64,000 bases of DNA from contig DAIBTC010000002.1 in assembly GCA_027415345.1 (NCBI GenBank), positions 1-64,000 of the forward strand, read 5' to 3'. The translations under genes and the position numbers were made by a program. Below, one piece after another: positions 5,365 through 12,031 of the stretch (position 1 is its first letter; every line of letters starts with the position of its first letter). Under the pieces are notes generated by a model that had not been told where the DNA came from, did no database searches, and saw only the letters and a list, made by a program, of their open reading frames with translations. The DNA is from Nitrospirota bacterium. Lineage in GTDB: Bacteria > Nitrospirota > Leptospirillia > Leptospirillales > Leptospirillaceae.

Positions 5365-6738
5365 TCAGGCTTCGAGCAATCCGGCAAGCTTTCTTTCGAG
5401 ATCTTCCGGCGTGATGCGGTCCCGGAGATATTTGACCCAGAGGACCTTCTCGGACTCCCGGTACCGGCAGTCGACCACCCCGGCCATGTCTCCCATCTGG
5501 CGGACGAGAGGCATGGGATCGGAGAGTTCCCTCTCCACCGGACGCTCGAATGTTTCGAGAAGGTTCGGATCAGTGAGCCCCAGCGCGATAAAAAACCAGA
5601 TGACGGCGATCACCAGCATCCCGATGAAAAAGGCCTCGTTCGAAACCGTGACCAGGGCTCCGCCCAGGGCCCCCCCTAAAAACGCTCCCAGGAACTGGCT
5701 CATATTGAAAACTCCCGAGGAGGTTCCCCGTGTCCGGGTCCGGACAAAGCGGGTCATGATGGAGGGCATGAGAGGCTCCAGGAGGTTGAATCCGACAAAG
5801 AATACCGAAAGACCCGCGATCAGGCCAACTTCGGTCCGGTATCCCATCAGGAAGACCACGAAGCTCAGGACGATGAGGGCGATGGCGATCAGGTACGCCA
5901 CCTTGAGCTTTTTGCGCTTCTCGGCCACGATCATGCCCGGCACCATGAGGAACATCCCGCCCAGAATCACGGGCAGGTAGACCTTCCACATGCTTTGGGC
6001 CGACATGTACTTGTGGAGCAGGACCGGGAAGCTCACAAAGACTCCTGTGAGAAAAAGGTGCAGGGTGAAGACGGAAATGTCGATCCGGAGAAGGGCCGGA
6101 TTCCTGAGAACATACCCAAGCTGCGATAAAGAAAGCTCCATTTCGTTCTTGTGGACCGCCCCGACAGGATTGGGGACGACCAGGAGCAGGATCGCGATTC
6201 CCAAAAGAGAGAGAACGGCCGTCATCCAGAAGAGGGAGGAGACTCCGTAATGGGCTCCCACGATCGGCCCCACGACCATCCCGACGGCAAAGGAAAGTCC
6301 GATCGAGATCCCGATTCCGGCCATGGCCCGTGTCCGGTACTCTTCCCGTGTGAGATCAGCCATCAGTGCGATCACCACCGAGGCCACCGCACCGGCCCCC
6401 TGAAGAAGCCGCCCGACGAAGAGTCCGAGAACCGAATGGGCGGTCGCCGCAAAGACGGATCCGCCGGCAAAGATCAGAAGCCCGATGATGATGATCGGCT
6501 TTCGTCCGAAACGATCGGACAGCATCCCGAACGGAACCTGCAGAATCGCCTGGGAAAGGCCATAGCCTCCCAGGGCCAATCCGAGCCAAAAGGGGTCCGC
6601 TCCCGGAAGCGTCCGGGCATAGAGACTGATCACCGGAAGCACAATGAAGAGTCCGAACATCCTGATTGCAAAAATCATGCTGAGGCCGACCAGAGTTTTT
6701 TTCTCGACCGGGCTCAGTCCCTCGCCGCCACCTGCCAT
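5365..6738 (-). CDS. MFS transporter, YajR-like, with C-terminal cytosolic domain
   Basis: 457 aa, many TMs, GMLSDRFGRKPII MFS motif A; about 65-residue soluble tail after the last TM. Confidence 0.85.
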   Translation of the reverse strand: MAGGGEGLSPVEKKTLVGLSMIFAIRMFGLFIVLPVISLYARTLPGADPFWLGLALGGYGLSQAILQVPFGMLSDRFGRKPIIIIGLLIFAGGSVFAATAHSVLGLFVGRLLQGAGAVASVVIALMADLTREEYRTRAMAGIGISIGLSFAVGMVVGPIVGAHYGVSSLFWMTAVLSLLGIAILLLVVPNPVGAVHKNEMELSLSQLGYVLRNPALLRIDISVFTLHLFLTGVFVSFPVLLHKYMSAQSMWKVYLPVILGGMFLMVPGMIVAEKRKKLKVAYLIAIALIVLSFVVFLMGYRTEVGLIAGLSVFFVGFNLLEPLMPSIMTRFVRTRTRGTSSGVFNMSQFLGAFLGGALGGALVTVSNEAFFIGMLVIAVIWFFIALGLTDPNLLETFERPVERELSDPMPLVRQMGDMAGVVDCRYRESEKVLWVKYLRDRITPEDLERKLAGLLEA

Positions 6739-7169: not shown

Positions 7170-7355
7170 TTATTTTTGAGGACTGGCGGAAGGAGGGGAG
7201 GGTGGGTGGGAATAATGGCTGAAGGAATCCTTGCCCAGCAAACCCCACATCATGGAACCGAAAAGGAGAAGAAAAAGACCGATGACACCGGCCAATATGA
7301 AAAATATCGGCCGGGCATCGGTCCACATCTTTTTGATTTCCGCGATGACCCGCAT
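7170..7355 (-). CDS. Single-TM micropeptide (61 aa), unknown function
   Basis: MRVIAEIKKMWTDARPIFFILAGVIGLFLLLFGSMMWGLLGKDSF...; SD-like AGGA upstream; sits 33 bp downstream of another sORF. Confidence 0.6.
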   Translation of the reverse strand: MRVIAEIKKMWTDARPIFFILAGVIGLFLLLFGSMMWGLLGKDSFSHYSHPPSPPSASPQK

Positions 7356-7388
7356 CAGAAATTCCTAAAAAACGACCGTCACGGAAAC

Positions 7389-7517
7389 CTACTTGTCGGG
7401 ATTGGAATAGATGGATGAGATGGCCATAAACCAGCCAGCGACAATTGCAAACCCAAGCGCGATCGGGATTACCCACTCCAGCGCAGTCCAGTTACCAACG
7501 GTTTGAATGGGAGCCAT
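7389..7517 (-). CDS. Single-TM micropeptide (42 aa), unknown function
   Basis: Own translation: MAPIQTVGNWTALEWVIPIALGFAIVAGWFMAISSIYSNPDK*; GGAGG SD 7 nt upstream of ATG; absent from the supplied ORF list because of length. Confidence 0.62.
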   Translation of the reverse strand: MAPIQTVGNWTALEWVIPIALGFAIVAGWFMAISSIYSNPDK

Positions 7518-7583
7518 TCTGGAACCTCCAGTCAGGATATTGTAATAGTTCGGGCGGCAAAGAGGTGCCTCGCCGATTCCTTG

Positions 7584-7612
7584 AGAATATCCGAAGAAAT
7601 CAAAAATCGCAA
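7584..7612 (-). promoter_or_regulatory. Candidate sigma70 promoter of the micropeptide dicistron (TTGCGA-N17-TATTCT)
   Basis: Minus strand: TTGCGA at 7607-7612, 17-nt spacer, TATTCT at 7584-7589. Confidence 0.45.
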
Positions 7613-7662: not shown

Positions 7663-8235
7663 CTATCTCCCGTATCGCCCCACGAGCCTCCCCTTCCCGA
7701 TCGTCTTAAAATGGAGGAAATAGCCGACCTGGGCCGGCGACGCCCCGGGCGACACCCCGAGCTTCGGGGTCTTCAGGGCATAGACGGTGATGATGTAGTG
7801 ATGGGGGCGGTCTCCTTTTGGCGGACAGGGCCCGCCATAGCCCGGAGCCCCGAAGTCCGTCACGGCCTGAACGGCTCCGGCCGGAAGGCGCCGGCCCTCC
7901 TTCGTTCCGACCCCTTCGGGAAGCTCATGGACGGACGGGGGGATATTGTAAACCACCCAGTGCCACCAGCCGGAACCGGTGGGGGCATCCGGGTCGTACA
8001 CGGTCAGGGCGACACTTTTCGTTCCCCGGGGAAGGGTACCCCACCGGATTTCGGGGGAGACATTCCTGCCATTGCACCCGAATCCGGAAAAGACGTATTT
8101 CTCTCCGATCCGGCCTCCGTTTTTAAAGGCGGTGCTGGTCACCCGGATCCCCGATGAGGCGTAGGAGAGAAGGGGTGCCAGGACAAGGATCGCCATAAAA
8201 AGACCCCAAAACATTTTTTTCCCTGCCGGAATCAT
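7663..8235 (-). CDS. YbhB/YbcL family Raf-kinase-inhibitor-like (PEBP) protein, exported
   Basis: Start MIPAGKKMFWGLFMAILVLAPLLSYA (signal peptide) with GGAGGTGA SD; YDPDAPTGSGWWHWVVYNIP and GPCPPKGDRPHHYIITVYAL PEBP motifs. Confidence 0.9.
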   Translation of the reverse strand: MIPAGKKMFWGLFMAILVLAPLLSYASSGIRVTSTAFKNGGRIGEKYVFSGFGCNGRNVSPEIRWGTLPRGTKSVALTVYDPDAPTGSGWWHWVVYNIPPSVHELPEGVGTKEGRRLPAGAVQAVTDFGAPGYGGPCPPKGDRPHHYIITVYALKTPKLGVSPGASPAQVGYFLHFKTIGKGRLVGRYGR

Positions 8236-8290: not shown

Positions 8291-9157
8291 TCAAACAAGG
8301 GTCGGGGAGGAGATCCAGAACCCCGCCAGGATGAGGGCTCCCAGGAGCGCATGGGAGCGGAACAGGCGAAGGGGCTCCTCCCCGGAGAGCCCCCTTTTGA
8401 TTCTGAGGGACTGCCAGAGCACGACGCAAAGGAAGAGGAGAAGGGAGAGGAAAAGCCATCCCGACTGGGGAAGGGAGCGCCCGGCGACCCCCAGAAGAAA
8501 GGCCGCCAGAACGGAGAAAAAAAGGAAGACGGCCCAGAGGGAGTCTCCGAAGGTGACCGCTCCGGATCGGATTCCGGCCTTTCTGTCATCCGGCAGATCG
8601 GCCACCGCATAGATCAGGTCGTAGGCCGTGGCCCAGAAAAGGCCGGCCAGGGCCAGGAGAATCCCGGAGAGGGAAATCCTTCCCGTGAGCTGGACCCAGG
8701 CCATGAGGGGGGCCGTCGCCCCGAAGGGAATCCCCATGAAGAGCTGGGGAAGCGGAAAAAAGCGTTTCATCAGGGGATAGACCACCGCCGAGCCGTACCC
8801 CAGCACAGCCACCAGGATGGCCCCTCCGGAGAAGAACAGGAGAAGGGAGGCCGAGAGAAGGGTCAGGAGACTGAAGATCCCGAGGGCCCAGGAGACGGAC
8901 AGGCGACCGTCGGCCAGGGGACGCGCCTTCGTCCGGGCGACCTTCCCGTCGATCTTCCGGTCGAAGAAATCATTGATGACACATCCTGCCGACCGCGTCA
9001 GAAAGGATCCGGCCAGGAAAATCGTGATCCATTTCCAGGGAACCTCTCCGGGCCGGGCCAGAAGGAGGGCCCACCCGGCGGGAAGAAAGAGGAGGATCCA
9101 GCCGATGGGCCGGTCAAACCGGATCAGCTCCAGCGTGGCAAGGAGCCGGCCTCTCAT
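8291..9157 (-). CDS. ubiA: UbiA-type prenyltransferase (4-hydroxybenzoate polyprenyltransferase-like)
   Basis: 288 aa, NDFFDRKIDGKVARTKARPLADGRLS and DLIYAVADLPDDRKAGIRS Asp-rich motifs, multiple TMs. Confidence 0.92.
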   Translation of the reverse strand: MRGRLLATLELIRFDRPIGWILLFLPAGWALLLARPGEVPWKWITIFLAGSFLTRSAGCVINDFFDRKIDGKVARTKARPLADGRLSVSWALGIFSLLTLLSASLLLFFSGGAILVAVLGYGSAVVYPLMKRFFPLPQLFMGIPFGATAPLMAWVQLTGRISLSGILLALAGLFWATAYDLIYAVADLPDDRKAGIRSGAVTFGDSLWAVFLFFSVLAAFLLGVAGRSLPQSGWLFLSLLLFLCVVLWQSLRIKRGLSGEEPLRLFRSHALLGALILAGFWISSPTLV

Positions 9158-9687
9158 GGGGGTCCGCCTCCGGCAAGACGCAAAAGGGGAGGAAGAAAAA
9201 ACTCCTCGATCCTGAGAGAGAGGCCCTCTCGGGTCCTCATCCGGTAGGACCGGGCCCAGGTCTCCCCCGGTTCGCTGGGTCCATCGGAATCGAAGGGGCC
9301 GATGACGGAGAAGACAGAAAATTCATCCTTGAGGAGGGGGCCGTAGCGGGCCTCCATCGACTGGCCAATGGCCAGGTCTCCCCGCAGGAGGGTGGCGATA
9401 AAGGGATCGGATCCCTGCCCCGGGGATGGAAGAAGGCGGGTTCTGGCGAAGACCAGGCGTCCCAGGGTGGGAACCCGGAGATAGACCTTTCTCTGCCCTT
9501 CCGGAGAATCAGGAAGGAGAACGGTTTCGACCTCCACACTCTCCCCCGAGAGAAAGGTGAGGGATCGGGTCAGGGTTCCGTCAAGACCAAGCAGCATCCG
9601 GAAGGGGCCCGGAAGGCGGGAAAAGCCGGCCGGAACCGGGCCTTCAAGGATCGCCTCCATAGCTTTCGGCTCCGTTTTTTCCTTCAC
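9154..9687 (-). CDS. Chorismate lyase-like protein (UbiC/chorismate pyruvate-lyase family)
   Basis: GTG start at 9687 overlaps the upstream stop (GTGA); MLLGLDGTLTRSLTFLSGESVEVETVLL...VYLRVPTLGRLVFARTRLLP pattern typical of chorismate lyase; between radical SAM gene and ubiA. Confidence 0.72.
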   Translation of the reverse strand: MKEKTEPKAMEAILEGPVPAGFSRLPGPFRMLLGLDGTLTRSLTFLSGESVEVETVLLPDSPEGQRKVYLRVPTLGRLVFARTRLLPSPGQGSDPFIATLLRGDLAIGQSMEARYGPLLKDEFSVFSVIGPFDSDGPSEPGETWARSYRMRTREGLSLRIEEFFLPPLLRLAGGGPP

Positions 9688-11255
9688 GAGGCCCGGGCCA
9701 CCACCGATCCCTTGGCCGAAACCCCGGCGATTCCCAGGGATCTCTTGATCTCCCGCATCACCACGCGCCCCATGGCCATGGGCTCGATGTCCCAGGCCAG
9801 AAGACAGGCCTTCGCGATCAGCTCGCCCAAGGGTCCGGGATTGTAGAGAAGCTTTCTGATCGTCCAGGGATTGAGGGAGATGGGGTCGTAGTCCGGGTCG
9901 AGCCACCCTTCCCTCATGAGACGCTTCTCGAAACTCGTGTGGGGCTGGACCGCCAGAAAGAAGACCATGGGATAGACATTTTCCGGCCCGAAGATGTCGC
10001 AGATCTCCTCGTAGCTCTCGACCGCACAGGCCAGGGATTCCGGCGTCTCTCCGGGGGCGTTCAGGGAATAGTTCAGGATGATCTTTCCCCGGTAACCGGC
10101 CTCCTTGAGATTGCGGCACCCTTCCATCAGCCCCTCGAGGCGGAAGCCCATCTTGAGGGAGTCCAGGATCTCCTGGGACCCTGAGGTGATCGCCACTTCA
10201 AGGTCTCCCATCCCTGACTCCACCATCAGGCGCGCCATCTCGGGAGAGATGAGGCTTGTGCGGATATACCCGCTCCAGGTGATGTCGAGACGGCTGTCCC
10301 GGAGGGCCGTCAGGAGCGAAAGGGCCTCCGGCACGGCCTTGACCCCAGGGATGAACTGGGCATCGGCGAACCAGAAGTTTTTTATTCCCCACCTGTCCCG
10401 GTACTGGCGGATTTCCTCCACCACCTCCTCGGGGTCACGATAGTAAACCCGTTTCCCCTCGATGTAGGTATAGAGGCAGAAGGAGCATCCGTAGGGACAC
10501 CCCCGCTTGGTCTGAATGCCGACCGTTTTCCCGTGGTAGATCTCATGGCCGGGGAAAACCGATTCAAGATAGGCAAGATCGAAGGGGGCGCGACGGATTT
10601 CCACGGCCCCGGCCTTTTTGCCCAGGACGATCTGGGACCCCTTGCGGGTGATGACCCGTTCGTCATCGACCGGCCGCCCCTCCAGGGTCTTGATCATGGC
10701 CTCCTCGCCCTCTCCGACTACCCCGATGACCCCCTCGGGAAGGAGCCTGATGATCTGTTCGGCAAAGACGGAAAAGGCTCCGCCCCCCACCATGACACGG
10801 GCCTTGGGGGCCCGACGGACCCCCTCCTTGATGAAGCGGAGCTTCTTGTGGAATTCGGAACGGTATTTCCAGACCATGCGAAGGCCATCCCAGGCGGCAT
10901 AGGCCCGGGTGAGAAGATTGGGGGAATAATAAAATTCGAAGGCCCGGCGGAGGGAGTTGTCTCCCTCGTGGGGAGCGAAGATCTGGACATCGCGCCAGGA
11001 ATAGGCCAGGAGATCGGGGGAGAATTCCTCGATCCTGGAGATCAGGGCCTTCATCTGGTCGGGTTCCTCGAATCGGGTCAGGTCGAGAACCTCCAGGGTC
11101 ACTTCCGGATGCTCCCGGTGGATCCAGTTCACGAGATAGCCGATTCCCACCGGAAAGATCTGGCGGACAGGGAGCCAGACGAAGAGAATTCTCCGGTACA
11201 GGCTGGGTGGCCGGGTCCCTGTCCCCGCCACCATGGGCAGTTCCATTGTCTCCAT
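9684..11255 (-). CDS. Radical SAM protein with cobalamin-binding-like N-terminal domain, in quinone operon
   Basis: 523 aa, RGCPYGCSFCLY CxxxCxxC motif; N-terminal RILFVWLPVRQIFPVGIGYLVNWI Rossmann-like segment. Confidence 0.88.
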   Translation of the reverse strand: METMELPMVAGTGTRPPSLYRRILFVWLPVRQIFPVGIGYLVNWIHREHPEVTLEVLDLTRFEEPDQMKALISRIEEFSPDLLAYSWRDVQIFAPHEGDNSLRRAFEFYYSPNLLTRAYAAWDGLRMVWKYRSEFHKKLRFIKEGVRRAPKARVMVGGGAFSVFAEQIIRLLPEGVIGVVGEGEEAMIKTLEGRPVDDERVITRKGSQIVLGKKAGAVEIRRAPFDLAYLESVFPGHEIYHGKTVGIQTKRGCPYGCSFCLYTYIEGKRVYYRDPEEVVEEIRQYRDRWGIKNFWFADAQFIPGVKAVPEALSLLTALRDSRLDITWSGYIRTSLISPEMARLMVESGMGDLEVAITSGSQEILDSLKMGFRLEGLMEGCRNLKEAGYRGKIILNYSLNAPGETPESLACAVESYEEICDIFGPENVYPMVFFLAVQPHTSFEKRLMREGWLDPDYDPISLNPWTIRKLLYNPGPLGELIAKACLLAWDIEPMAMGRVVMREIKRSLGIAGVSAKGSVVARAS

Positions 11256-12031
11256 TACTTATCTCCCATATGGATCGCCACGATCCCTCCCGACAGGTTC
11301 CGGTAGACGACATTGGAAAATCCGGCCTTCCTGATCGTCTCGCTGAATATCTCCTGGTCAGGAAATTTCGCGATCGACGCCGGCAGGTATTCGTAGATCC
11401 CCGTATTGTCCCTTGATATCCATTTTCCGATTTTTGGCAGTATATAAAAGGAATAGAAACGGTACAGCCCGTCCCAAAGGGCATTGACGGGATGGGAAAA
11501 CTCCAGGCACGCAAATCGGCCGCCCGGCTTCAGGACCCTGTAAATTTCCGACAGGGCCACATCGAGATTGGTCACGTTCCTGAGGCCGAATCCCACCGTC
11601 AGGCGGTCCACCGATCCCGCGGGAAGGGGAATGTTTTCAGCATTGGCCTGGATCATGACCGGCCGTGCCCGGCTCTTTCTCTCCTTCAGGCCGTCGATGA
11701 CCCGGGATCGGGCCTTGGAAAGGCCCACACGGAGCATGGCCATATTGAGATCGACGGTCATGACAAGGCCCTCCCCTCCCGCCTTCTCCGCGGCCAGAAG
11801 AGACAGGTCGGCGGTTCCCCCGCACAGGTCCAGAATCACATGGCCTTTCTCGATCTTCAAAAGATCAATCGTCAGGCGCTTCCACCGGTGATGCTGGCCA
11901 AGGCTCAGGACGGAATTGTTGAGGTCGTAGGCCTTGGCGGCCGAGGTGAACATGTTCTGGACGACGTCCTGCTTGCGTTCCTTGGCAGGAAGGGAGTACT
12001 CCGACATTCCGGTCCTTTCGGATATTGGCAT
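11255..12031 (-). CDS. ubiE: UbiE/MenG/COQ5 family C-methyltransferase
   Basis: 258 aa, VILDLCGGTADLSLL SAM motif, GFGLRNVTNLDVALSEIYRVLKPGGRFACLEFSHP UbiE signature. Confidence 0.93.
   Translation of the reverse strand: MPISERTGMSEYSLPAKERKQDVVQNMFTSAAKAYDLNNSVLSLGQHHRWKRLTIDLLKIEKGHVILDLCGGTADLSLLAAEKAGGEGLVMTVDLNMAMLRVGLSKARSRVIDGLKERKSRARPVMIQANAENIPLPAGSVDRLTVGFGLRNVTNLDVALSEIYRVLKPGGRFACLEFSHPVNALWDGLYRFYSFYILPKIGKWISRDNTGIYEYLPASIAKFPDQEIFSETIRKAGFSNVVYRNLSGGIVAIHMGDK

Follow-up and report, generated by a model that had tools for sequence, protein, structure and literature searches.

Among the small membrane proteins that attach to larger partners, KdpF is bound to the Kdp transporter and AcrZ has AcrB as its partner. 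CcoQ/FixQ and CcoS/FixS are small proteins with a single transmembrane (TM) helix that belong to cbb3 oxidases, which are haem-copper oxidases. AcrZ has been described as a micropeptide bound to a transporter (PMC7267776) and CydX as a subunit of cytochrome bd of about 37 amino acids (PMC4325964, PMC6005532). We analyzed a 64 kb stretch of DNA from a member of the Leptospirillaceae (the window), which encodes two adjacent micropeptides, mp42 and mp61 (Table 1). Like CydX, these are single-helix micropeptides of comparable size that are conserved in their clade, but they are encoded as a pair and show no Pfam (YbgT_YccB) or PDB similarity to it; no cydAB genes were seen among their neighbors. 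CcoQ and CcoS resemble them as small single-TM proteins, and the Leptospirillaceae do possess dispersed cbb3-type genes. However, mp42 and mp61 match neither PF05545 nor PF03597 and lie outside the ccoO/ccoP-like cluster, which carries a FixS-like protein of its own. KdpF and AcrZ likewise consist of one TM helix with few residues outside the membrane, but no similarity of theirs to the pair was found either, and the pair's adjacency to an MFS transporter gene is not constant. Searches of Pfam (using 17 members each of mp42 and mp61), NCBIfam and the PDB revealed no similarity to known small subunits. Homology to CydX, CcoQ or KdpF was rejected for lack of a match in these databases, the listed PDB matches being chance hits with E values of 0.14 or worse.

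The original prediction described two open reading frames of 42 and 61 amino acids, 33 bp apart, with one hydrophobic helix each. Both were found on the minus strand, with 33 nt between the stop codon of mp42 and the ATG of mp61, and the GGAGG Shine-Dalgarno sequence claimed for the shorter frame is indeed present 7 nt 5' of its ATG. The best 19-residue stretch reaches a hydropathy of 2.15 in mp42 and 2.61 in mp61, so that both combine a length below about 70 amino acids with one hydrophobic helix, as expected of micropeptides. Only three open reading frames in the 64 kb, including these two, have an ATG start preceded by a Shine-Dalgarno sequence, a length of 30–70 amino acids and a strong hydrophobic helix. 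The reversed sequence contained none and Markov sequences a mean of 0.15.

Table 1. Positions of the features discussed (window coordinates unless a locus or contig is named).
Feature	Position	Strand	Basis or remark
MFS transporter, downstream	5365..6738	-	PF07690
mp61, 61-aa single-TM micropeptide with variable tail	7170..7355	-	family orthologues, pN/pS, invariant residues
mp42, 42-aa single-TM micropeptide	7389..7517	-	family orthologues, pN/pS, invariant residues
Short inverted repeat CTGGA-GGT-TCCAG	7519..7531	-	overlaps Shine-Dalgarno of mp42
Shine-Dalgarno GGAGG of mp42	7525..7529	-	sequence; invariant in 13/13 same-genus loci
Inverted repeat CGGCGA...TTGCCG in leader	7555..7575	-	possible mRNA hairpin or operator
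Promoter TTGCGA-N17-TATTCT	7584..7612	-	sole window match; footprint in same-genus loci
PEBP-family protein, between ubiA and the micropeptides	7663..8235	-	PF01161; not constant outside genus
UbiA prenyltransferase	8291..9157	-	PF01040, E 8e-50; nearest constant upstream gene
Chorismate-lyase-like (UbiC-like) protein, start approximate	9154..9690	-	PF01947, E 8e-4, weak, below cut-off
B12-binding radical SAM protein	9684..11255	-	PF04055 and PF02310
UbiE/COQ5 methyltransferase	11255..12031	-	PF01209, E 2e-69
mp42b	L100 8342-8473; L101 5575-5712; also L157-L172	- (L100, L101)	family-wide
mp61b	L102 7605-7790; also L187-L199, L206	- (L102)	family-wide
mp61b, window's own assembly	G000:C155:12221-12370		
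Divergent cbb3-like accessory cluster	L142 4974-9824; also L143, L146		

Conservation of the reading frames in relatives had been proposed as a check. When this was carried out, both frames were found to be kept: among 21 genomes that represent five genera of Leptospirillaceae, 20 have adjacent orthologues. Protein searches detected the pair in every genome of the same genus and in 6 of 7 genomes of four other genera, and the sole genome without it is an assembly that is only 64% complete. The spacing between the two genes ranges from 31 to 39 nt across relatives. At the codon level both genes are under purifying selection, pooled within-genus pN/pS being 0.16 for mp42 and 0.30 for mp61. The TM core of mp61 is under tighter constraint than its tail, with values of 0.20 for the first 47 codons and 0.57 for the C-terminal part. 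Invariant residues are N9, W10, G28, W29, I36, Y37 and N39 in mp42, and I7, K9, M10, F18, F19, L21, G23, F28, L30, L31, S34, M35, W37, G38, G41, D43 and F45 in mp61. Core identity to the other genera amounts to 40–54% for the two peptides, similar to the 49–53% of UbiA. In genome G008 the entire locus occurs twice, in diverged form (L072 and L073); since it is listed with 7% contamination it may be a mixed bin.

Across 396 phylum genomes, no homologue outside the family stood out from noise. A scan of contigs from 84,980 species, done for mp61 only, returned 19 loci with its profile, all of them titled Leptospirillum or 'Nitrospirae' MAGs. Early weak matches (L103, L106 and L107) were discarded as chance hits, their frames being non-TM or implausible. 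The term orphan used in the original prediction does not hold, as both peptides have orthologues throughout the family and mp42 also has a clear paralogue. We found no account of these genes in the open-access literature. Small membrane proteins as such are already known; the pair itself is new and lineage-specific. We consider it almost certain that mp42 and mp61 really are small membrane proteins, conserved within this lineage and specific to it, and that they have a promoter of their own.

The predicted promoter TTGCGA-N17-TATTCT was located on the minus strand at 7612-7584, and the slightly relaxed pattern TTGCGA-N17-TATNCT has one match in the 64 kb with 0 expected. It agrees with the sigma-70 consensus at about 8 of 12 positions, a weak match, and was therefore not picked up by a consensus scan. 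The -35 element TTGCGA is invariant in all 13 same-genus loci, in which the -10 element reads TATTCT, TATCCT, TATGCT or TAATCT and is followed by a conserved leader of 65–69 nt; the sequence upstream of TTGCGA aligns poorly. Judged from these alignments the promoter is a strong phylogenetic footprint, and we infer that mp42 and mp61 are co-transcribed as one operon. Two inverted repeats lie within the leader. In the alignment the CGGCGA...TTGCCG helix is paired in 93.6% of cells, with one variable pair (GU/AU/GC), and the CTGGA-GGT-TCCAG helix in 98.5%; for both combined the value is 95.8%, compared with 26–52% in slid versions. Conservation of the second repeat may stem from constraint on the Shine-Dalgarno sequence itself. 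The folding energy of the leader is unremarkable (z about -0.6 to -1.0) and there is little true covariation. Compensatory changes are almost nil. The repeats may exert control at the level of RNA or serve as an operator.

Both micropeptides have likely relatives elsewhere in the genomes of the family. A micropeptide of about 44 amino acids with the motif W-x-x-x-D-Y, mp42b, is encoded between crp/fnr and glgA. Comparison of mp42 and mp42b with hhalign gave a full-length match (93% probability, 34 columns, E 3e-7), and searches with mp42b retrieve mp42 loci. The two align over their whole length, sharing an N-terminus of the type W-x-x-x-[ED]-[WY] and the TM segment, and by this comparison are paralogous. 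The second relative, mp61b, has 50–68 amino acids and the pattern FDPxDP...W-[IM]-L...D-[FY] and is encoded beside dapF and a GGDEF-like gene. Its hhalign match to mp61 is weaker (71% probability, E 4e-5), and the mp61b search reaches mp61 at E 0.004–0.016 in five genomes. The two appear to share the TM and W/Y...D-F/Y layout, the N-terminus of mp61b being acidic (FDPxDP), and they are probably paralogous as well. The genes of mp42b and mp61b are located apart from one another and from the mp42/mp61 pair. The window's own assembly, which is 82% complete, contains mp61b and lacks mp42b. Since paralogue-like relatives of both peptides occur family-wide, two versions of the same parts are suggested.

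Conserved residues occupy all helix faces of mp42 and mp61 (conservation moments 0.21 and 0.15), as would be expected if the helices were buried within a larger assembly. For mp61 an N-in/C-out orientation is likely because of its positively charged N-terminus, and a weak prediction places mp42 probably the other way round. With opposite orientations the two helices could sit antiparallel. An AlphaFold2 model of the pair, in which stops were read as glycine, was uninformative (pLDDT 62, pTM 0.31). We propose that the promoter drives a two-gene operon for two single-helix membrane micropeptides, which would be packed inside a larger complex of the inner membrane, as small subunits with a structural or an assembly role. 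This complex would be particular to the Leptospirillaceae, and its most likely class would be an electron-transport complex. Both the packing and the respiratory nature of the complex we infer. Membership in a membrane complex, by preference a respiratory one, is the reading we favor, though only tentatively and with doubt slightly outweighing belief.

The original prediction of respiratory subunits thus stands in part: a co-encoded single-TM pair with its own promoter and under purifying selection is real. Its respiratory part found no direct backing, as similarity to CydX, CcoQ, CcoS or KdpF is lacking in Pfam and the PDB and no gene for an oxidase, a bc complex or NDH is linked to the pair in any relative examined. 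Circumstantial points in its favor are the all-face conservation and the scattered cbb3-type genes, which are accompanied by other micropeptides and are without a recognizable CcoQ. The place of the pair behind genes of quinone biosynthesis is a further point, of little weight given the conserved gene order of the region. In the Leptospirillaceae ccoN stands alone, apart from the ccoO/ccoP-like cluster. This cluster encodes FixO-like and FixP_N-like proteins, a cytochrome c, membrane micropeptides of 34 and 68 amino acids, a FixS-like (CcoS-like) protein below the cut-off and two proteins that match only the last third of COX1. No FixQ/CcoQ exceeded the Pfam cut-off in the 21 family genomes, although this profile detects poorly, with no more than 1 of 14 control genomes above its cut-off. 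A location of the pair inside an oxidase operon was discarded after the small open reading frames at COX1 loci had been read; neither mp42 nor mp61 was among them. More specifically, mp42, mp61, mp42b and mp61b might be subunits of the dispersed cbb3-type oxidase or of a quinone-cytochrome complex in iron respiration and replace CcoQ-like subunits, which we regard as distinctly unlikely.

The genomic neighborhood brings other functions into consideration. The ubi cluster lies upstream of the pair wherever that side is present on the contig, UbiA being called there in 16 of the loci compared; a gene for a B12-binding radical SAM protein is placed within this ubiE/ubiC-like/ubiA cluster. The pair might therefore serve quinone biosynthesis by anchoring or scaffolding UbiA and soluble Ubi-type enzymes at the membrane, a function suggested by the common orientation of ubiE, the radical SAM gene, the ubiC-like gene and ubiA, in this order, ahead of the pair in five genera. 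Between ubiA and mp42 no further same-strand gene is called in g2, g4 and g5, where the gap is 214–294 nt, and the ubi cluster stays upstream while the downstream neighbor changes. However, the conserved promoter is the pair's own, and on the ubiA side another gene may intervene, such as the PEBP-family gene, which is missing from several genera. The paralogues adjoin crp/glgA and dapF instead of quinone genes, and the linkage carries limited weight because the whole ubi-arg region keeps its order across the five genera. We consider a role in quinone biosynthesis rather unlikely. On the downstream side follow an MFS transporter gene, a TrkA-type channel gene and arginine-biosynthesis genes, the first two sharing the orientation of the pair in most relatives. 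Accessory regulation of this transporter or K+ channel, comparable to that of AcrB by AcrZ or of Kdp by KdpF, is nevertheless highly improbable, since an opposite-strand fliM-like gene (named by eye) intervenes between pair and MFS gene in G004 and G011, the MFS gene of G010 is not beside the pair and a different gene follows there, and the gap in the window amounts to about 430 nt.

An adaptation of the envelope or of the stress response to very low pH, in which the peptides would act on the membrane or on various partners outside any fixed complex, would agree with the restriction of the pair to a family of acidophiles. The conserved inverted repeats of the leader suggest regulation, and the mp42 paralogue adjoins a Crp/Fnr-type regulator. 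Many polar and aromatic residues are invariant, on every face of the helices, and the pairing of the two genes is fixed, which points to specific protein contacts instead, and such an adaptation appears no more probable than a function in quinone biosynthesis. Small size, hydrophobicity and the short operon are also features of type I toxin-like peptide pairs. This reading was set aside as scarcely credible because the genes are neither multi-copy nor rapidly evolving: almost every family member has them just once, at a locus that is conserved, and they are under strong purifying selection.

In bioleaching and acid mine drainage, leptospirilli are leading iron oxidizers; to our knowledge, the electron-transport complexes of their membranes have not been fully described. 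The mp42/mp61 genes are an example of short genes that length cut-offs can miss. Present in nearly every member of the family and found nowhere else, the micropeptide pair offers native-membrane proteomics a concrete target. Should mp42 and mp61 belong to a terminal oxidase or a bc complex, subunits would be missing from the present inventories for this lineage.
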